Of a stretch of 51,883 bases of DNA, positions 7,472 to 16,195 are shown piece after piece; within the stretch, counting starts at the first letter, position 1, and the number at the start of each line of letters is the position of its first letter. The notes beneath the pieces are model-generated. The model was not told the DNA's origin and searched no databases. It saw nothing but the letters and a program-made list of their open reading frames with translations. This DNA is from Geodermatophilus chilensis. GTDB taxonomy: Bacteria; Actinomycetota; Actinomycetes; Mycobacteriales; Geodermatophilaceae. Both the position numbers and the translations under genes were made by a program. The DNA lies in NCBI RefSeq assembly GCF_002802985.1, contig NZ_NVPT01000014.1, positions 1 to 51,883 on the forward strand, written 5' to 3'.

Positions 7472-7492
7472 CCCCGGCTCCACCCCGCACAC

Positions 7493-7524
7493 CGGCGGCG
7501 GCTCCTCACGGGGAGCCGCCGCCG
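7493..7524. terminator. Bidirectional hairpin terminator
   Basis: CGGCGGCGGCTCC pairs with GGAGCCGCCGCCG over 13 bases around a 6-base loop. It begins 22 bases beyond the nucleotidase stop and also lies beyond the end of the minus-strand operon, so it can serve both. Confidence 0.8.
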
Positions 7525-7529
7525 TCGGC

Positions 7530-7718
7530 GCGCGCCCGGAGCGGTCACCGTCCTGATCGTGACGCGAGCCAGCAGCGGCTCGATGCACATGGACGTCCCG
7601 AGCACGCCGCCGAGGACGAGCACGATCACGAGCAGCGGGAGCAGGCCCTGGGAGTTGGTCGAGGCCCGGCCCTGCCGCGCAGCGAGCGTCCGCGGCCCGT
7701 GGAGTCCACGGTCCTCAT
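7530..7718 (-). pseudogene. Small membrane protein, apparently frameshifted
   Basis: An ATG at 7718 overlaps the SDR stop codon as ATGA, in the style of the rest of this operon. Its own frame (MRTVDSTGRGRS) ends after 30 residues. If one base is added in the G run near 7700, the frame continues as TGPRTLAARQGRASTNSQG and then a membrane helix (LLPLLVIVLVLGGVLG) followed by TSMCIEPLLARVTIRT. The helix codons have almost pure G/C third positions. The corrected frame then lacks a stop before the terminator hairpin, so a second defect may exist. Either a real broken gene or a base-calling error; function unknown. Confidence 0.4.
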
Positions 7719-8530
7719 CGCATGACGAGGCCGCCGTCGACGAACAAGCACGCGCCGGTGACGAAGCGGGACCAGCCGCTGGCGAAGTACAACACTGCCC
7801 CGGCGACGTCGTCCGGGGTGGCCAGGCGCCGCAGGGGAGCGGCCTGCTCGAGGGCATCGCGCTGCTCGTCGGTCGCCGTCCGGCTGGAGTCGGTGGGGTG
7901 CACCAGGCCCGGTGCGACGCAGTTCACGGTGATCCCCAAGGGCCCGAGCTCGGTGGCCATGGTGCGCGAGTAGCCCAGGAGTGCGGCCTTGGCGGTCGTG
8001 TAGTCGTGGTAGGGCACGCTGGGGCGCTCGACGAGGTCGGTGACCACGTTGATGATCCGGCCACCGCCGCGGGCCTGCAGGCCGGGCAGCGTCGCTCGGC
8101 AGACGTTGACCGCGCCGCCGAGGCTGCCTTCCAGCTGGCGCTGGTGGTCCTGCCACGACGTCTCCCACGCCGTCCGCCGGGCGAGGGGGTCGAAGGTGTA
8201 GCTGCGCAGGGCGTTGTTCACGACGACGTCCGCGGGGCCGAAACGGTCCTCGACCTCCTCGACCGCGGCCTGGACGGCGTCAGGATCGGTGACGTCGGCC
8301 TGGACGGCGTGCGCCCGCCCCCCAGCAGCCTGGACGTCGGCCACCACGGCTGCGGCCGACACCGCGTCGTGCAGGTAGTTGACCGCGACGGCGGCACCGT
8401 GCGCCCCGAGCGCTCGGGCGATCGCGGCGCCGATGCCGCGGCTGGCCCCGGTCACCAGCGCCACGCGGTCGCGGAGCAGGTCGCTGCGGCCCAGCCCGCC
8501 GTGGTCGCCGGGGGAGGGGAGCGGGCTCAT
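7715..8530 (-). CDS. SDR-family oxidoreductase of the TPP-riboswitch operon
   Basis: 271 residues; ATG 8530 overlaps the LuxC-like gene's TGA (ATGA). TGASRGIG at 27-34 binds the cofactor, and Ala/Asn in AVAVNY suggests NADP use as in FabG-like proteins. VVNNALRS replaces the usual NNAG. The catalytic Tyr177 and Lys181 (YTTAK) are present, but the residue 13 before Tyr is Thr164 (NVVTD) rather than Ser. The C-terminus is complete (FVTGACLFVDGG). Placed after an acyl activation and acyl reduction pair, it most simply reduces the aldehyde they make to an alcohol. This is inferred from order and coupling only. Confidence 0.85.
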   Translation of the reverse strand: MSPLPSPGDHGGLGRSDLLRDRVALVTGASRGIGAAIARALGAHGAAVAVNYLHDAVSAAAVVADVQAAGGRAHAVQADVTDPDAVQAAVEEVEDRFGPADVVVNNALRSYTFDPLARRTAWETSWQDHQRQLEGSLGGAVNVCRATLPGLQARGGGRIINVVTDLVERPSVPYHDYTTAKAALLGYSRTMATELGPLGITVNCVAPGLVHPTDSSRTATDEQRDALEQAAPLRRLATPDDVAGAVLYFASGWSRFVTGACLFVDGGLVMR

Positions 8531-10059
8531 CGCCGTCCGCCGGCGTCCGCGGGCCGCGACGGCCGGGTCCACTCGGGGTCGTACCGTTCCACGTCCACTT
8601 CGGCTGCGCCTTCGACGTCGGTCCACCGCACGAGGGCCGCGAGGCTGCCTCGGCCGTCGTGGTGCCAACCCGCGGCCGGTCGGGGCATCTGCCCGACGGC
8701 GCAGACGCGGTCCACTCCGCACCGGCCCAGCAGCGAGGCCCAGGTGTCCAGGCGATCCGGCGCGCACGCGACGCCGGCGGTCTGCAGGTAGCGGCGCAGC
8801 GGCAGCAGCAGCGGGACGACGTCCTGGAGGCCGTCGACCGGGTGCACACGCACGACCCGGTTCAGCGGTGAGGGCTCGAACCGCTCAGGGTGCTCCTCGA
8901 GCACGACCGTCCACGCGGTGCTCCTGCTGCTGGTGACGACCTGCACACCCGGGTCGTCATAGGAGCGGAGCTCGTACCGGGAGCGGACCGCGGCGACGGC
9001 CGCGCTCTCCTCCAGGCCCAGTCGGGCCCGCGGTCGAGCGCGCTCGTAGTGGTCCATCTCCGCGGCCAGCGCCGCCGTGAAGGTGCGTGGATCGACGGCT
9101 CCCCCGCGCTCGACGAAGACCGCGTGCGGGGACAGGCAGCCCTGCTGGTCGTACTGGGACACGTCCCGGGCGACGCGGCGGGCCGTCTCGGCGTACCGGG
9201 TCAGCGCCAGCGCCTCGTGCCCGATGACGGCGAAGCTGACCTTGTGCCCGTAGGGCACGAACGGCACGCCCACCGGCACCCGCCGGGCCAGGTCCTCGGT
9301 GGCGCGCAGGCCCGCGGTGGCCATCACCGCGTCCGCGTGGGCGAAGGCCACCTGCTCGACGTCCTCGGCCCCACCGGGCCAGTGGACGATGGCCAGGCAC
9401 CGTCCCAGCCCCGGGTCCTCCTCGGCGATCGTCTGGGCGAACAGCGCCGGGAACAGCGGCTCGGCACCGGCGGACTTGCCGAGCGTCGCGGACTTGACGA
9501 GGAAGGCGCACACGAGGTTCCAGGCGGGTAGGCCGGGGACGTTGCCGGCGAAGAACTGGGTCGTCAGCCGGGGGCCGTAGGCCCGGGAGCGCCCCCCGGC
9601 CCGGTCGGGCTGAAAGCCGTCGAGCACCAGCGGGTTGTCGAAGTCCTGGGCGAGGAAGCGCAGCAGCCGGTCGCGGCGGAAGGTCCTCAGGTGCTCCTTC
9701 AGCCCGCGGCGGACCATGTCGGAGGCGTACCCGGTGATCTGCGGCAGCAGCTGCTCGGCCGCGCGGCGCTGTGGCAGGTCCGGGTCGGACCAACGGGCCA
9801 CGGCCCGGCCCAGTGCCTCCAGCACGTCCATCACCGGGCGGTCGGCCAGCTCCTCGGCCTGGGCCCGCAGCAGCCGCTCGCACAGCACCTCGACGAGCGC
9901 CGGCGTCACCACCGGCCCGCGCAGCGGGACGTCGCCCACGCGGCGCGTCGTCCACTCCAGAGCGGCCAGCTCGGTGTCATCCAGCTGCGGCAGGAAGAAG
10001 GCGTCCAGCGCCTCGAGACCCCTCGCACCCTCCGCCTCCCGCGGGTGCAGCAGGGTCAC
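8527..10059 (-). CDS. LuxC-like acyl-CoA / acyl-protein reductase
   Basis: 510 residues from GTG 10059, which overlaps the LuxE-like gene's TGA (GTGA). Family PF05893 is recognised by QYDQQGCLSPHAVFVE: Cys308 matches the Cys that carries the acyl group in LuxC before NADPH reduction to aldehyde. FFAGNVPGLPAWNLV (about 169-183) is the family's cofactor-side motif, and LVKSATLGKSA follows, as in aldehyde-dehydrogenase-like folds. In luminous bacteria LuxC works with LuxE to turn fatty acid into aldehyde. There is no luxA or luxB here, so the aldehyde serves another purpose. Control by the TPP riboswitch upstream of the operon points to thiamine metabolism. Confidence 0.9.
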   Translation of the reverse strand: MTLLHPREAEGARGLEALDAFFLPQLDDTELAALEWTTRRVGDVPLRGPVVTPALVEVLCERLLRAQAEELADRPVMDVLEALGRAVARWSDPDLPQRRAAEQLLPQITGYASDMVRRGLKEHLRTFRRDRLLRFLAQDFDNPLVLDGFQPDRAGGRSRAYGPRLTTQFFAGNVPGLPAWNLVCAFLVKSATLGKSAGAEPLFPALFAQTIAEEDPGLGRCLAIVHWPGGAEDVEQVAFAHADAVMATAGLRATEDLARRVPVGVPFVPYGHKVSFAVIGHEALALTRYAETARRVARDVSQYDQQGCLSPHAVFVERGGAVDPRTFTAALAAEMDHYERARPRARLGLEESAAVAAVRSRYELRSYDDPGVQVVTSSRSTAWTVVLEEHPERFEPSPLNRVVRVHPVDGLQDVVPLLLPLRRYLQTAGVACAPDRLDTWASLLGRCGVDRVCAVGQMPRPAAGWHHDGRGSLAALVRWTDVEGAAEVDVERYDPEWTRPSRPADAGGRR

Positions 10060-11270
10060 CGTCGATGCCCCCTGTTCGCCGCGAGCAGCTCGTCCAGGGC
10101 GATGGAGCACCCGCGGGCCTCGCTGCCCTGCGCCCGGCCCAGAAGCACGAACTCACGCCCACCGGGCGCGGCGGTGTGATCCGTGGGACCGGCGTCCAGG
10201 CCGCCGCTCGCCGTGAGGTGACCGACGTCCTCGGCGAGGACGGCCAGGCACGAGCCGCGGTTGGCCAGGTCGTAGTGCACCAGCAGCCCGCGCTCGCCCG
10301 GCGCCACCGGCCGGCCGGTGCCGGCGTCGACCACCTGCAGGCGGGCCCACGGCGGCACGGCCTTGATCCGCGGCGACGGGTCGTCCCCGAGCCACGCCCG
10401 CCGCAGCGTCGTGTCGTAGTACTGGGTGCTGATCTCCGTCATCCCGTAGTAGTTGACGCACCACGCGTCCGGGAGGCCCAGCCGCTGGTCGAACGCCGCA
10501 CGCAGTGCCTCACCCGAGACCTCCCGGGACCGGCCCTTGAAGCCGCCGGTGTCCAGCAGCCGGCTGCCGGGCGGCAGCCGGAACGCGGTGCCCGTGGCCT
10601 CCAGCGCATCGAGGAGGTGCACGTACGCGAACGAGGTCCCCAGCAGCCCCACCGGCACCCCGTCGCGCTCGGCCTCCGTCAGGGCGGCGACGAGCCCGTC
10701 GAGGTCCAGGCCGTCGGCGCTGACGAAGGTGCCGCTCCCCGAAGCGCCGAAGGAGTCGACCAGGCGCCCGAGGAAGTAGGCGAGGGAGGAGTGTGGCTGC
10801 TGTGCCGGCGGCGGGTTGAGCACCAGCAGCCGCAGCTCGTCCCTGTCCGGCAGGAACCAGTGCCGGAAGCTGGCGCGCAGCGAGGCGTCGTACAGGTGCA
10901 GGTGCGGGTGGTGGTTGCGCCCGCGCCGGCTCGGGTCAGTGCTGCCGCTGGTCGTGAAGACCGCCGCTGCCTCCCCCGGCGGGTCGCATGACAGCGTCAG
11001 CTCCTTGAAGGCGCTCAGCGGCACGGGCGGGACCTGCCGCCAGCTCTGCACGCGCCCGGGTTCGGCCCCCCGCGCCCGGCAGTAGCGCCGGTAGGGGCGG
11101 TTGCGCTCGTACTGGTCGGCGAACAGGTCCAGCGCCAGCCGGTCGAACTCCGCCTCCTGCGCCTGTGTCGGGCCGGCGTCGTCCCAGTCCTGGACAGAAC
11201 GCTCGATCCAGGTGACCAGCCGCCGGTCCAGCTCACCGAGCTGGGAGACCGCCGGACCCGAGCCGCTCAC
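10056..11270 (-). CDS. LuxE-like acyl-protein synthetase (AMP-forming)
   Basis: 404 residues from GTG 11270, overlapping the symporter's TGA (GTGA). PF04443-type adenylate-forming enzyme: TTSGST at 106-111 is the phosphate-binding loop and YGMTE at 275-279 the adenylation motif. ARGCSIALDE near the end places Cys388 where LuxE carries its acyl-thioester. LuxE activates a carboxylic acid with ATP, then passes the acyl group through this Cys to LuxC. The residues between 150 and 245 are not diagnostic of chain length, so the acid could be small or aromatic. The longer frame upstream is a shadow of the symporter gene. Confidence 0.9.
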   Translation of the reverse strand: MSGSGPAVSQLGELDRRLVTWIERSVQDWDDAGPTQAQEAEFDRLALDLFADQYERNRPYRRYCRARGAEPGRVQSWRQVPPVPLSAFKELTLSCDPPGEAAAVFTTSGSTDPSRRGRNHHPHLHLYDASLRASFRHWFLPDRDELRLLVLNPPPAQQPHSSLAYFLGRLVDSFGASGSGTFVSADGLDLDGLVAALTEAERDGVPVGLLGTSFAYVHLLDALEATGTAFRLPPGSRLLDTGGFKGRSREVSGEALRAAFDQRLGLPDAWCVNYYGMTEISTQYYDTTLRRAWLGDDPSPRIKAVPPWARLQVVDAGTGRPVAPGERGLLVHYDLANRGSCLAVLAEDVGHLTASGGLDAGPTDHTAAPGGREFVLLGRAQGSEARGCSIALDELLAANRGHRR

Positions 11271-12706
11271 CGCGCCACCTGCTCGTCTACGGGCCGGTCC
11301 AGCGGCCGGACCCGGCGCGAGAGCTCCTGCAGGTCCGTGCTGCGCCGGCCGAGGAGGGAGACGAGCACCGTCACCGCGGTGGACGCCGTCAGGGCCGCCG
11401 CGAAGGGCGGCAACGACAGGCCGCCGGCGAACGTGGCGATGTCCACGGCCGCGGCGAGGGACCCTCCGGCGACCAGACCGTGGACCAGGGCGCCGACGAG
11501 ACCGGCCACGGCTCCGGCGACCGCGGCAGCCGGCGTGGCCCGGCGCCACAGCCCGAGGAAGGCGGGCGCGATGGTCGCCGCGCAGAGCAGGTCGGCGACC
11601 AGGAACAGCCGCAGCACCGACAGCCCCTGGAAGGCCACCACCGCCGGCACCACGGTGAGCAGCACCACGAGCACCCGGGCGCCACGCAGCCCCAGCCGCG
11701 GCGCCTCGGTCACCACGGCCGCGGCGAGACCGCCCTGCAGCGTGTCGACGGTGGAGGTCACCAGGGCCACGGTGAAGACCAGGACGATGAGCAGCACCCA
11801 CTGCTCGGCCCCTGCCAGCAGCGCGAAGAACGGCACCGGCGGGCTGCCGAGGTCCACCGCCGAGGCCGCGGCCAGGAGACCCACCAGGCCCGCGGGCAGC
11901 ACCACGAGGACGCGCGCCGCAGCCCCGAGCAGCGCCCCGCGGGTCAGGGCCCGCTCGTCGCGCGCCGACCACACCCGCTGCCAGTAGCCGTTGTGGAACA
12001 GGCTGGTGGCCAGGACGGCCACGACCAGGGTGGCCGCCCCCTCCAGCCCCGCGCCGTCGACGTCGAGCAGCCGCCCGGCACCCTGGGGCTCCGAGCCCGG
12101 CAGTGCACGGACGGCGACGAGGCCGACCACGCCGAGCAGCAGCAGGAGCAACCAGCCCTGCCACACGTCGGTGCGGATGGAGGCCCGGAGCCCCCCATGG
12201 GCGGTGTACAGCGTGGTGACCGCGGCGACGGCGACCACGCCCGCCCGCGGGTCCAGGCCGGACAGGCGCCCCAGCACCGCCCCGGTCGCGGTCAGCTCCG
12301 CGGCCAGCGCCACGAGCATGTACACCAGCGAGATCCCCAGCACGTACGCGTGCATCCCGCGTCCGAAGCGCAGCCGCACGAACTCCACCAGGTTGTGCCC
12401 CCGGGGGACCAGCGCCCGCAGGCGGCGGCCGAGCACCACCAGTGCGAGCAGGGGCAGGGTGATGGCCACGGCGTAGCCCACCACCCCCGCCAGGCCCACC
12501 GAGGCGCCCACCTCCGGTGGCGCGAACAGCACCCAGGCGCCGACCCCGGAGGCGAAAAAGGACAGGCCCAGCGCGCTGGCGCCCTGAGTGCCCCGCGCGA
12601 CAGCGAACTCCTCCAGGTCCCGATCGCGGCCGACCGCGAGGCCCACGCCGGCGAACAACAGCAGCACGGCAGCCACGGCCACCACGGTCACGGGGATGCC
12701 CACCAC
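11267..12706 (-). CDS. Sodium:solute symporter (SSS family) under TPP riboswitch
   Basis: 479 residues, about 13 membrane helices, with the SSS-type segments SFFASGVGAWVLFAPPEVG, PRGHNLVEF and STVDTLQGG. The start is GTG 12706: GGAGGG, which is the 3' edge of the riboswitch, lies 7 bases upstream. The ATG at 12727 is inside the aptamer and is not the start. SSS proteins import organic acids, sugars, amino acids or vitamins with sodium. Symporters of this kind under TPP riboswitches (ThiV in other bacteria, from memory) have been predicted to carry thiamine precursors. First gene of a tightly overlapping operon with LuxE-, LuxC- and SDR-type genes. Confidence 0.9.
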   Translation of the reverse strand: MVGIPVTVVAVAAVLLLFAGVGLAVGRDRDLEEFAVARGTQGASALGLSFFASGVGAWVLFAPPEVGASVGLAGVVGYAVAITLPLLALVVLGRRLRALVPRGHNLVEFVRLRFGRGMHAYVLGISLVYMLVALAAELTATGAVLGRLSGLDPRAGVVAVAAVTTLYTAHGGLRASIRTDVWQGWLLLLLLGVVGLVAVRALPGSEPQGAGRLLDVDGAGLEGAATLVVAVLATSLFHNGYWQRVWSARDERALTRGALLGAAARVLVVLPAGLVGLLAAASAVDLGSPPVPFFALLAGAEQWVLLIVLVFTVALVTSTVDTLQGGLAAAVVTEAPRLGLRGARVLVVLLTVVPAVVAFQGLSVLRLFLVADLLCAATIAPAFLGLWRRATPAAAVAGAVAGLVGALVHGLVAGGSLAAAVDIATFAGGLSLPPFAAALTASTAVTVLVSLLGRRSTDLQELSRRVRPLDRPVDEQVAR

Positions 12707-12711
12707 GTCGA

Positions 12712-12804
12712 GTCCCTCCGCCGGCATTACCCGGACAGGTTCCTGCGGTCGGCGACGCGTCCAGCCGCCCTCTCAGCCCGGTCTGCCCGAGCTCCCGCTC
12801 TCCA
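12712..12804 (-). promoter_or_regulatory. TPP riboswitch (THI element)
   Basis: On the minus strand, 5' to 3': stem GCUCGG / CCGGGC around GCAGA (P3), then the invariant CUGAGAG; a GC-rich variable arm (GGCGGCUGGACGCGUCGCC); GGAACCUGU; stem CCGG GUAAUG CCGG (P5); then CGGAGGGA. All conserved parts of the thiamine-pyrophosphate aptamer are present in order and spacing. The terminal GGAGGG is also the ribosome site for the GTG at 12706, so TPP binding should block translation of the symporter and, by coupling, the operon behind it. Confidence 0.95.
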
Positions 12805-12810
12805 GCACGG

Positions 12811-13017: not shown

Positions 13018-13719
13018 TCACCGCCGCTGGGGGGAGGCCAACCACCTGGGGGCGGCCGCGCGGAACACCTCCGTTGCCAGGTGGCCCGCTCCGGCCGGTA
13101 TGCGGCCGAGCAGTGGAACGCGGATCCGGGACAGGTCCTCGAGGTTGCAGTGCTCGGCCAGGCCGGGCTCGGCCGGCCAGGAACCGATGACGAGACCGGC
13201 GGGTTCCAGGTCGCGGGCACGCAGTGCCTCGACGGTCAGCTCGGTGTGGTTCAGCGTGCCGAGCCCGGCGGCCACCACGACCAGGACGGCTGGCTCCACC
13301 CCGGCGGCGCGGACGGCCAGGGTGAGGTCGGCGACCGTACCGCCGTCGGCGTCCAGACGGACGAGGAGTCCACCGGCTCCCTCGACCAGGACGACGTCGT
13401 GCGTGTCTGCGAGCTCGACGACCCTCGCGGCGGTGTCCTGCACGGCCGGCAGCGCCAGTCCTGCGCGCCTCGCCGCAGTGTCGGGGGCCAGTGGCTCGGG
13501 CAGTCGGACCGGCTCCACGACCGTGTGCGCTCCGCCGAGCCGCTGCACCACCGCGAGGTCACCGGGCTCGTCGGCCTGGACGCCGGTCTGCGCCGGCTTG
13601 ACCGCGGCGACCCGCAGCCCGTCGGCGGTGGCACGGGCGGCGAGCGCCGCGGTGACGATCGTCTTGCCGACATCGGTGCCGGTCCCGGTGACGACGACGA
13701 TGCGTCCGTCCACGGTCAT
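13018..13719 (-). CDS. bioD: Dethiobiotin synthetase
   Basis: 233 residues; ATG 13719 overlaps the bioF stop as ATGA. GTGTDVGKT at 12-20 is the ATP-binding P-loop of BioD, KPAQTG holds the substrate-side Lys, and VEGAGGLLVRL is the second signature. It forms the ureido ring of dethiobiotin from DAPA, carbon dioxide and ATP. Last gene of the biotin operon. Confidence 0.96.
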   Translation of the reverse strand: MTVDGRIVVVTGTGTDVGKTIVTAALAARATADGLRVAAVKPAQTGVQADEPGDLAVVQRLGGAHTVVEPVRLPEPLAPDTAARRAGLALPAVQDTAARVVELADTHDVVLVEGAGGLLVRLDADGGTVADLTLAVRAAGVEPAVLVVVAAGLGTLNHTELTVEALRARDLEPAGLVIGSWPAEPGLAEHCNLEDLSRIRVPLLGRIPAGAGHLATEVFRAAAPRWLASPQRR

Positions 13720-14861
13720 CGTCGGTCGGCGAGGACGGACCGAACCGTGTCGGTGGCGCGGTCCAGCGCCGTGCCGGCCAGGGTGGCACGGGCGGTGAAG
13801 CGCATGCGGCTGATGCCGTCGGGCACCGACGGCGGACGGAAGCAGCCCACCCGCACACCCCGCTCCGCGAAGGCCTCCGCGGCGGCGACCGCGGCGTCGG
13901 GTGAGGGCATCGGCACCGACAGGACGGCGCCGTCGGCCGGCGGCATGCCAGCGGCGTCGGCCAGTGCCCGAGCGGCGGTGCGCACGGCGGCGATCCGTTC
14001 CGGCTCCTGCTGCAGCACGTCCAGCGCGGCGACCGCGGCCGCAGCCGCAGCGGGGTTGAGGCCGGTGTCGAAGATGAACGGCCGGGCCGTGTTGACCAGG
14101 TGTTCGACGATCTCGGGGGCGCCCAGGACGGCGCCACCCTGGCTGCCCAGGGCCTTGGACAGGGTGACCGTGACGACGACGTCGGGACGGCCGGCCAGCC
14201 CGAGTGCGGCCAGCAGGCCCTGGCCTCGGTCACCGCAGACGCCGATGCCGTGGGCTTCGTCGACGACCAGCACGCCGCCGTGGCGGTGGGTGACCTCGGC
14301 CAGCTCGGCCAGCGGCGCGGCGTCGCCCAGCACCGAGAACACCGATTCGGTGAGCACCAGGGCGTGGGGCTCCGACCGGGCGGCCAGCGCGGCCTCGACC
14401 GCGGCGACATCGCCGTGCGGGACCACCTGCACGCGGGCGCGGGCGAGGCGGCAGGCGTCGACCAGCGAGGCGTGGACGTGTGCGTCGGAGACGACCACCG
14501 CATCCTGGCCGGCCAGGGCCGTGACGACGCCGAGGTTGGCCAGGTATCCGGAGGAGAAGACCAGCGCCGCCGGCTGCGCGCAGTGCCGCGCCAGCGCGGC
14601 CTCGAGTTCCACGTGCAGGTCGAGGGTGCCCGTCACCAGCCGAGAGGCCCCCGAACCAGCTCCCCAGCGGTGGGTCGCGGCGGCGGCGGCCCCGGTGACG
14701 CGCGGATCAGTGGCCAGGCCCAGGTAGTCGTTGCCGGCCAGGTCGAGCGTGGGGGTACCGGCGGCGCGAGGGCGGAGTACCCGGGTCAGGCCGGCCTCGT
14801 CGCGCTTGGCGGCCTCGGCGCGCAGCCGCTCGAGGAAGGCCGACTCGGACGTCTCGGTCAC
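13716..14861 (-). CDS. bioF: 8-amino-7-oxononanoate synthase
   Basis: 381 residues from GTG 14861, overlapping bioA's stop (GTGA). A PLP enzyme of the alpha-oxoamine synthase family: [10 protein letters not shown] near the active site, [10 protein letters not shown] for the PLP-binding Asp and His, and [11 protein letters not shown] with the Schiff-base Lys. It joins pimeloyl-thioester and alanine to give 8-amino-7-oxononanoate, the first committed ring-forming step of biotin synthesis. The long frame to 15329 is a shadow within bioA. No pimeloyl-making gene (bioC, bioH or bioW) lies nearby. Confidence 0.96.
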
Positions 14862-16195
14862 GAGGCCACCGCCCTCACCGCCGCCACGACCCCCCGGCTG
14901 ATCGTCGCCACGTCGTCCTCGCTGCTGATGTAGGGCGGCATCGTGTACACGAGGTCGCGGAAGGGACGCAGCCACACGCCCGCAGCAAGCGCGGCCTCGG
15001 TGGCCCGGGCCACGTCGACCGGGGTGCGGGTCTGCACCACGCCGACGGCGCCGAGCACGCGGACGTCGGCCACGCCGGGAAGGTCCGCCGCGGACGCGAG
15101 CCCCTCCGTCAGTCCCCGCTCGATGCGGTCGATGCCGGCGGCCCAGTCCTGGCCGGTGAGCAGGTCCAGGCTGGCCGAGGCCACCGCGCAGGCCAGCGGG
15201 TTGGCCATGAAGGTCGGACCGTGCATCAGCGCACCGGCCGGTTGCGCACACACCTCCTCGGCCACGGCGGTGGTGCACAGGACTGCGGCCAGCGAGAGAT
15301 AGCCGCCGGTCAGCGCTTTGCCGACGCACAGGATGTCGGGGACCACCCCGGCGTGTTCGGCGGCGAACATCGTGCCCGTGCGGCCGAAGCCGGTGGCGAT
15401 CTCGTCGAGGATGAGGGGCACTTCGTGATCGTCACAGAGCCGGCGCAGGACCCGCAGGCACTCGGGGCTGTAGACGTGCATGCCGCCGGCGCCCTGCAGG
15501 ACCGGCTCCACGATCACCGCCGCCAGATCAGCGGCATGCTGCTCGAACAGCCGCGTCGTCTCCGCGGTCCACGCGTCGAGTTCTGCATCCCCCGGCGCAC
15601 GGTCGAACCCACCGGGCGGCCGCGGCGCGAACACCTGCTCCGGCAGGACCCCGGCGAACAGTGAGTGCATCCCCCCGACCGGGTCGCACACGCTCATCGC
15701 GTCGAACGTGTCGCCGTGGTAGCCACCGCGCACGGTGAACTGCCGCCGGCGCCGCGGCTGCCCGCGGCCCACCGCCCGCTGCAGGGCCATCTTGAGGGCG
15801 ACCTCCACGGCCACCGAGCCGGAGTCGCAGAGGAAGACGTGCCGGAGCGGGTCCGGCGCGAGGGCGAGCAGGCGCTCCACCAGGCCGACGGCTGGAGCGT
15901 GCGTGAGGCCGCCGAACATCACATGCGACATCGACGCGAGCTGGTCGCGGGCGGCGGCGTCGAGGACGGGGTGGCGGTAGCCGTGGATCGCACACCACCA
16001 CGAGGACATGCCGTCGATGACGTCGCCGTACCCGGCCAGACGCAGCCGCGCTCCTTCGGCGGACTCCACCACCCGCACCGGTGAGGGGGCGGTCATCGAG
16101 GCGTAGGGATGCCAGAGGTGTGCGCGGTCGACGGCCAGCAGCCGGCCGAGGTCGGCGTCCGGGCCGGCGGCCAGCTCGCCGCGGGCCGTGGTCAC
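14858..16195 (-). CDS. bioA: Adenosylmethionine-8-amino-7-oxononanoate aminotransferase
   Basis: 445 residues from GTG 16195, overlapping the bsaP stop (GTGA). [22 protein letters not shown] and HVMFGGLTH are BioA hallmarks; the Trp-Trp pair helps bind SAM as amino donor. [13 protein letters not shown] carries the PLP-binding Asp and [11 protein letters not shown] the Schiff-base Lys. It converts 8-amino-7-oxononanoate to 7,8-diaminononanoate. It is complete, with PYISSEDD near the C-terminus as usual. Confidence 0.96.

Follow-up and report, generated by a model that had tools for sequence, protein, structure and literature searches.

A putative TPP-controlled LuxE–LuxC–SDR cassette for the salvage of carboxylated thiamine fragments in Geodermatophilaceae and on plasmids of other bacteria

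Contig NZ_NVPT01000014.1 of Geodermatophilus chilensis was analysed over positions 1 to 51,883, and this whole stretch of 51,883 nucleotides is called the window below. On its minus strand lies an operon led by a thiamine pyrophosphate (TPP) riboswitch aptamer, in which genes for a sodium:solute symporter (SSS family), a LuxE-type ligase, a LuxC-type reductase and a short-chain dehydrogenase/reductase (SDR) follow one another (Table 1), and we confirm here this arrangement, which had been observed in an earlier note on the same DNA. Judging from the genomic comparisons described below, the LuxE, LuxC and SDR genes with their importer (the cassette) very probably serve the salvage of thiamine fragments that bear a carboxylate. 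Among such fragments, 4-amino-2-methylpyrimidine-5-carboxylate, which would be reduced to 4-amino-5-hydroxymethyl-2-methylpyrimidine (HMP), is probably the substrate.

A TPP aptamer heads four overlapping genes

The full TPP aptamer that the earlier note described is borne out by a covariance-model match to the Rfam family RF00059 (47.9 bits), and both cores, CUGAGA and GAACCUG, are present in it. At whole-genome scale the E-value of this match is 5.7e-8, and six TPP matches were found in the genome including it. The Rfam gathering score for RF00059 is 54.3, and scanning the entire window with this threshold returns no hit because the window aptamer falls under it. As the earlier note had proposed, the ribosome site of the symporter is formed by the last bases of the aptamer: the GGAGG ahead of the GTG start sits within the last conserved block, therefore direct control of ribosome access is possible. 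The coupling of the whole gene set was likewise read correctly, since the gene junctions overlap as GTGA (SSS/LuxE), GTGA (LuxE/LuxC) and ATGA (LuxC/SDR). Only the start of the operon's span, which had been placed at 7530, was loose; the SDR gene ends at 7715, and a hairpin follows it (its region, 7480-7535, folds with -36.8 kcal/mol on the plus strand and -43.4 on the minus strand).

Table 1. Features of the operon in the window
Feature	Position	Strand	Evidence
TPP riboswitch aptamer	12695-12808	-	RF00059 47.9 bits, E 2.4e-8 in stretch searched; core motif 12715-12776
SSS-family sodium:solute symporter, 479 aa	11267-12706	-	PF00474 E 7e-13; GTG start
LuxE-type carboxylate-activating ligase, 404 aa	10056-11270	-	PF04443 52 bits, E 6e-14, over cut-off
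LuxC-type acyl reductase, 510 aa	8527-10059	-	PF05893 301 bits, E 1.5e-89
SDR oxidoreductase, 271 aa	7715-8530	-	PF13561 E 2e-56
GC-rich hairpin, terminator-like without T run	7493-7524	.	between the operon and a convergent 5'-nucleotidase gene

The LuxC-type protein accounts for the only PF05893 match in the window genome. Compared with genome G061, the cassette genes differ at proportions of 0.04-0.09 for non-synonymous and 0.17-0.22 for synonymous sites. More specific profiles place the symporter and the SDR under their cut-offs (TIGR00813, 62 bits with a cut-off of 184, and NF006393, 289 bits with a cut-off of 292), and the LuxE-like protein also has a weak match to PF00501, under the cut-off of that family. 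The PDB relatives of the symporter, all weak, are DUR3 and iodide and multivitamin transporters.

The link between aptamer, LuxE and LuxC is conserved in three phyla

Among 112 Geodermatophilaceae genomes, a LuxC orthologue was found in six, with 72-88% identity outside the window genome. LuxE, LuxC and SDR stand in the same order at all six loci, and an aptamer lies upstream of the cassette at each of them (43.8-51.7 bits, all under the gathering score). Our scan of genome contigs with exact peptide words gave three near relatives, and the distant ones came from a survey of plasmids. When the window LuxC was compared with 72,556 plasmids, 33 records were matched, of which 27 showed 39-47% identity (Pantoea 13, Azospirillum 9, and single records of Lactiplantibacillus, Levilactobacillus, Niallia, Priestia and Pseudomonas silvicola); the proteins of Pantoea, Azospirillum, Lactobacillaceae, Niallia and Priestia were at 41-47%. 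The other six records (Novosphingobium, Sphingobium and four of Streptomyces and Streptantibioticus) were below 31% identity.

We examined 15 of the 27 nearer plasmid loci (Pantoea 5, Azospirillum 5, Lactobacillaceae 2, Niallia, Priestia and Pseudomonas silvicola; 8 Pantoea and 4 Azospirillum records were left out) and five of the six far ones. An aptamer stood ahead of the operon at 15 of the 15 nearer loci, 12 being recognised by the Rfam model and three (L104-L106) by the core motif only. The Rfam-scored leaders were over the gathering score in 11 cases (58.9-85 bits), the Priestia leader reaching 49.0. Thus, all 21 cassette loci examined carry an aptamer (18 by the Rfam model, 3 by motif only), which supports the earlier note in placing the cassette within the TPP regulon; the two Lactobacillaceae loci in this count carry the same proteins and are not independent. 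The earlier note had also named confinement of this linkage to one genome as a result that would refute it; this condition fails, since the linkage spans Actinomycetota, Pseudomonadota and Bacillota.

Other LuxC genes were used as controls. In the stronger control, which used whole genomes, none of 28 genomes of the class that have another LuxC (at best 33% identical) showed a TPP match 15 kb or less from it on its contig; here 94 of up to 402 first-look candidates were scored per genome, and the distances to LuxC were judged by eye. The core motif was seen at none of 41 control LuxC loci, 33 of which had flanks no longer than about 1.5 kb, and since the window aptamer lies ~2.6 kb before LuxC, such short flanks could miss a distant aptamer. 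This motif was written after the positives had been seen, and the controls L088-L090 repeat L080-L082 with wider flanks. At the five far plasmid loci examined, the core motif was absent. In a tree of 49 LuxC proteins, the 16 TPP-linked ones grouped apart from the 33 for which no aptamer was found (support 93/88; 92% of bootstrap trees), with a support just under the star of the tool and with long branches flagged.

The LuxC proteins at L080-L083, at 34-37% identity and from four genomes that belong to a different family of the order, come next outside the TPP-linked group; no aptamer was found at the three wide-flank loci of these. In Pseudomonas silvicola (L095:5598-9172), the aptamer looks intact, but LuxE, LuxC and SDR are each matched in separate pieces, such as decay of the copy or low sequence quality would produce.

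Leaders outside the family differ in their layout. In Priestia, Lactiplantibacillus and Niallia, a hairpin that resembles a terminator and has a T run comes after an aptamer, the layout expected of attenuation; for Niallia, one terminator was found where shuffled sequences gave 0.6, a count not significant alone. On the Niallia megaplasmid (L093:3633-3929), two tandem TPP aptamers with a terminator-like hairpin between them lie ahead of ThiW and the cassette. An RNA alignment of the leaders (A2) contains 12 pairs, two of them with changes on both sides, and these counts understate the structure because the L. plantarum row is misplaced.

Enzymes of the cassette and their relatives

The window LuxE belongs to PF04443 and carries the motifs TSGST and YGMTE, the protein of L. 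plantarum departing from the TSG.T pattern. Its Cys388, within GCS near the C-terminus, is invariant in 10 of 10 aligned sequences and is presumably the acyl acceptor. Cys308 of LuxC, within a YDQQGC motif of this PF05893 member, is equally invariant (10 of 10) and is aligned with a cysteine of the luminescence complex 7xc6; LuxC aligns with chain 7xc6_A at E 3e-16 and LuxE with 7xc6_E at E 8e-12. The SDR has both TGxxxGIG and YxxxK.

The luminescent LuxC–LuxE system of 7xc6 resembles the cassette in its two families, aligned cysteines and adjacent genes, but the cassette is under TPP control, and where that system has LuxD and LuxAB it has an SDR and a transporter. Moreover, against the NCBIfam equivalog models for long-chain fatty-acid reductase, LuxC scores 84.8 with a cut-off of 750, and LuxE 50.5 with a cut-off of 550. 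A second comparison is offered by GriC and GriD, which we assume to resemble LuxE and LuxC and for which we know of no TPP switch. In the grixazone pathway of Streptomyces griseus, these two proteins activate an aromatic acid and reduce it to the aldehyde, according to PMC10179220. They are thus a precedent for action on a ring carboxylate, although they serve secondary metabolism.

The salvage of N-formyl-4-amino-5-aminomethyl-2-methylpyrimidine (FAMP) by ThiXYZ, the deformylase YlmB and TenA is similar to the pathway proposed here in that a damaged thiamine pyrimidine is imported and turned into HMP, and a ThiY-like binding protein serves the cassettes of Azospirillum and Priestia. FAMP salvage works by hydrolytic deformylation and deamination, not by carboxylate reduction; neither ThiXYZ nor an amidohydrolase is found in the window cassette, and an ABC (ATP-binding cassette) importer of the NMT1 type was found only in the cassettes of Azospirillum and Priestia. 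The same genomes have CytX–ThiO–ThiG and TenA loci, which share the aptamer class and the regulon with the cassette and differ from it in consisting of known thiamine genes without such a reductive step.

Importers are exchanged while the enzymes stay

An SSS importer gene is present in five of the six family cassettes and was not found in the cassette stretch of G104. Instead, G104 has a permease of the NCS2 (xanthine/uracil-type) family whose ATG overlaps the SDR stop codon; at E 1e-60, no relative of it turned up in any of the other 111 genomes of the family. NCS2 permeases also occur in both Lactobacillaceae cassettes and in the Niallia cassette; the G104 protein is 43-47% identical to the Bacilli copies, and identities among G104, Lactiplantibacillus and Niallia are 43-59%. 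We considered whether the G104 permease is a mere neighbour of the adjoining inosine monophosphate (IMP) dehydrogenase gene, which is ruled out by the overlap with SDR, its uniqueness in the family and its kinship with the Bacilli proteins.

A third type of importer, an ABC system with an NMT1/THI5-type binding protein, was recognised by profile in Azospirillum ramasamyi, A. brasilense and Priestia and by annotation in A. lipoferum (the profile scans for importers left out L087 and L106). PDB relatives of these binding proteins include the FAMP-binding protein 3ix1 and the pyrimidine enzyme THI5. In Niallia, the operon consists of two aptamers, ThiW, NCS2, LuxE, LuxC and SDR, where ThiW matches TIGR02359 with 175 bits (cut-off 84). 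This is the one cassette locus at which TPP control is joined by linkage to a known thiamine gene, the combination by which a salvage operon would be recognised. As read from the gene content of these loci, the importer changes while LuxE, LuxC and SDR stay, and partners of the NCS2 and ThiY-like kinds suggest that the solute is small and resembles a pyrimidine.

Thiamine genes of the hosts

Matches to ThiC (E 1e-20) were found in 10 of 112 family genomes; two of the seven outside the cassette genomes (G034 and G035) are partial and lie in incomplete genomes. Of the six cassette genomes, three have none, two have a full-length ThiC, and the copy in G104 lacks residues 147-437. ThiO and ThiG stand behind a TPP aptamer in all 11 genomes examined, 10 of which have a long CytX match. 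A ThiD match was found in 10 of 10 genomes searched (nine over the cut-off, the one in G002 being partial), and ThiM in 10 of the 11 genomes from which TPP sites were fetched (not in G002), often beside an aptamer. Since ThiC is mostly missing while ThiO/ThiG and ThiD are kept, the pyrimidine is the scarce half of thiamine. With 102 of 112 genomes lacking a ThiC match and thiazole genes in 11 of the 11 examined, Geodermatophilaceae appear as a mostly pyrimidine-requiring family.

Decaying pyrimidine genes were seen in two cassette genomes, where an assembly error is possible in each case. In G104 (L066:7030-7866, minus strand), the ThiC gene without its middle part is TPP-led. In G004 (L057:717-1338), which has no ThiC match, a TPP-controlled CytX is cut short at 83 residues and neither TenA gene is more than a fragment, whereas the cassette is whole.

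Proposed pathway and the readings weighed against it

From features read in the sequences themselves, namely the aptamer, the gene order and overlaps, the conserved cysteines, the three-phylum link, the exchange of transporters and the presence of ThiD, we infer the substrate, direction, product, cofactors and TPP response of the cassette as follows. When TPP is scarce, the leader would free the ribosome site of the symporter and, via the overlapping codons, the sites of the downstream genes. The transporter would then import a carboxylated thiamine fragment, most likely the pyrimidine carboxylate. LuxE would activate the acid with ATP and then carry it, thioester-bound, on its C-terminal cysteine, Cys308 of LuxC would receive the acyl group, and reduction with NADPH would yield the aldehyde. 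The SDR would convert the aldehyde into the alcohol, HMP, and ThiD would phosphorylate HMP for thiamine synthesis.

The earlier note had left three acids as candidates, and its interpretation as a whole is partly supported: the pyrimidine acid is favoured, because nucleobase-type permeases and ThiY/THI5-like proteins replace the symporter and because ThiC, not ThiG, is mostly missing, and the two others, thiazole-acetate and thiamine acetic acid, are less so. The pyrimidine acid is a reported metabolite of thiamine, as stated in the title of Neal and Pearson 1964, which is cited in PMC7780320. We lean slightly towards the wider proposal of a horizontally spread and hitherto undescribed branch of vitamin B1 metabolism, in which the oxidised pyrimidine would be returned to HMP at the expense of ATP and NADPH by dedicated LuxE, LuxC and SDR enzymes under TPP control and with exchangeable importers.

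Several observations weigh against reduction of the pyrimidine acid. ThiC is commoner in genomes with the cassette (3/6, compared with 7/106 without; Fisher p 0.009), and so is full-length ThiC (2/6 compared with 5/106, p 0.045), relatedness being ignored in both tests. In the two cassette genomes with a full-length ThiC, the cassette would be a supplement. Thus, plain replacement of ThiC fits poorly, and the cassette is better seen as an extra salvage route. G004 keeps another route to thiamine, a TPP-controlled transporter of the ECF (energy-coupling factor) type, which we take to be YkoEDC-like and whose S component is named by no profile. As for import, the SSS, NCS2 and NMT1-type families each carry many substrates, and no transporter gene was found within the operon in the five Pantoea cassettes examined. 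Two PDB matches of the ABC binding proteins are better than 3ix1 and carry names that give no ligand, and the best NCBIfam matches of these proteins are SsuA-type, under the cut-off. ThiW is a predicted thiazole transporter and would suit a thiazole acid. Finally, the SDR resembles 3-oxoacyl-ACP (acyl carrier protein) reductases and could have another role.

The main rival, which we consider unlikely, is that 4-methylthiazole-5-acetic acid is imported, reduced to hydroxyethylthiazole and phosphorylated by ThiM. The frequency of ThiM and its place beside aptamers, ThiW at the head of the Niallia operon and an alcohol dehydrogenase with its own aptamer divergent to ThiM in four genomes (see below) would suit it. 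However, every family genome examined has ThiG and ThiO, so that thiazole is not the missing half, and the NCS2 and ThiY/THI5-like partners point to pyrimidine.

Thiamine acetic acid is a product of microbial thiamine oxidation, and import of this whole molecule with reduction to thiamine would explain a cassette in genomes both with and without ThiC. We judge this quite improbable, as NCS2 permeases are named for small nucleobases, not for bulky cations, and none of the SSS, NCS2 and NMT1-type ABC proteins is named a thiamine importer by the profiles. There is a similarly small chance that LuxC and LuxE form a fatty-acid reductase for long-chain aldehydes or alcohols, switched by TPP for another reason. 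The sole solved relative of LuxC is the luminescence complex 7xc6, which is also the best match of LuxE, but the scores are far under the LuxC and LuxE equivalog cut-offs, TPP control is kept in three phyla and is not seen near other LuxC genes, the partners are importers of small solutes, and there is no acyl-transferase among the four genes. A chance neighbourhood of aptamer and reductase operon, for which the score of the window aptamer under the gathering threshold might speak, is rejected, as conservation at 21/21 cassette loci and the two controls (0/28 genomes and 0/41 loci) contradict it.

Reductive use of the pyrimidine acid would add to the salvage established for HMP, FAMP, thiazole and thiamine itself; to our knowledge, thiamine fragments with a side-chain carboxyl have been treated as end products. 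In the open literature, to which our search was directed (5.39 million papers; subscription papers and regulon databases lay outside its scope), no paper was found that links LuxC/LuxE or a carboxylate reductase to a thiamine riboswitch; PMC3219970 employs lux genes as a reporter, and another paper concerns the engineering of Yarrowia. With a putative carboxylate reductase conserved under TPP control in three phyla, the reuse of oxidised fragments becomes testable, and a function is offered for a protein clade now annotated as acyl-CoA reductase or long-chain fatty acid--CoA ligase. Candidate vitamer importers are gained as well, and the question of how the mostly ThiC-less Geodermatophilaceae come by their vitamin B1 is touched. 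If the proposal is true, the pyrimidine acid would not be a dead end and would serve as genuine vitamin currency in soils, in plants and in fermented foods.

Neighbouring genes and other TPP-linked genes

Directly upstream of the window aptamer lie bioF and bioD (13018-15329, minus strand), and a partial BioD match is present at the G061 locus too; BioD was not seen at the other four family cassette loci. A biotin link was dropped, since BioD/BioF queries match only L046 among the Geodermatophilaceae loci, and it is also opposed by the annotated plasmid loci, which list no bio genes beside the cassette.

A zinc alcohol dehydrogenase gene stands under its own TPP aptamer at L051:14851-15864 (minus strand) and also at L056, L058 and L074. 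In these four genomes, three with the cassette and one (G024) without, it is divergent from ThiM, and a relative with 52% identity lies under an aptamer elsewhere in two more genomes (L063 and L067). The TPP sites retrieved from G043, G044, G046, G047 and the cassette genome G002 did not show it. This dehydrogenase would perhaps carry out another aldehyde/alcohol step on a vitamer.

Directly behind ThiC, L051:3660-5408 (minus strand) encodes a nitroreductase, which we take to be BluB-like, fused to a CobT-type phosphoribosyltransferase. Relatives of this fusion lie behind ThiC in G024 and G104, and no more than some 8 kb from ThiM in G061, G085 and G047.

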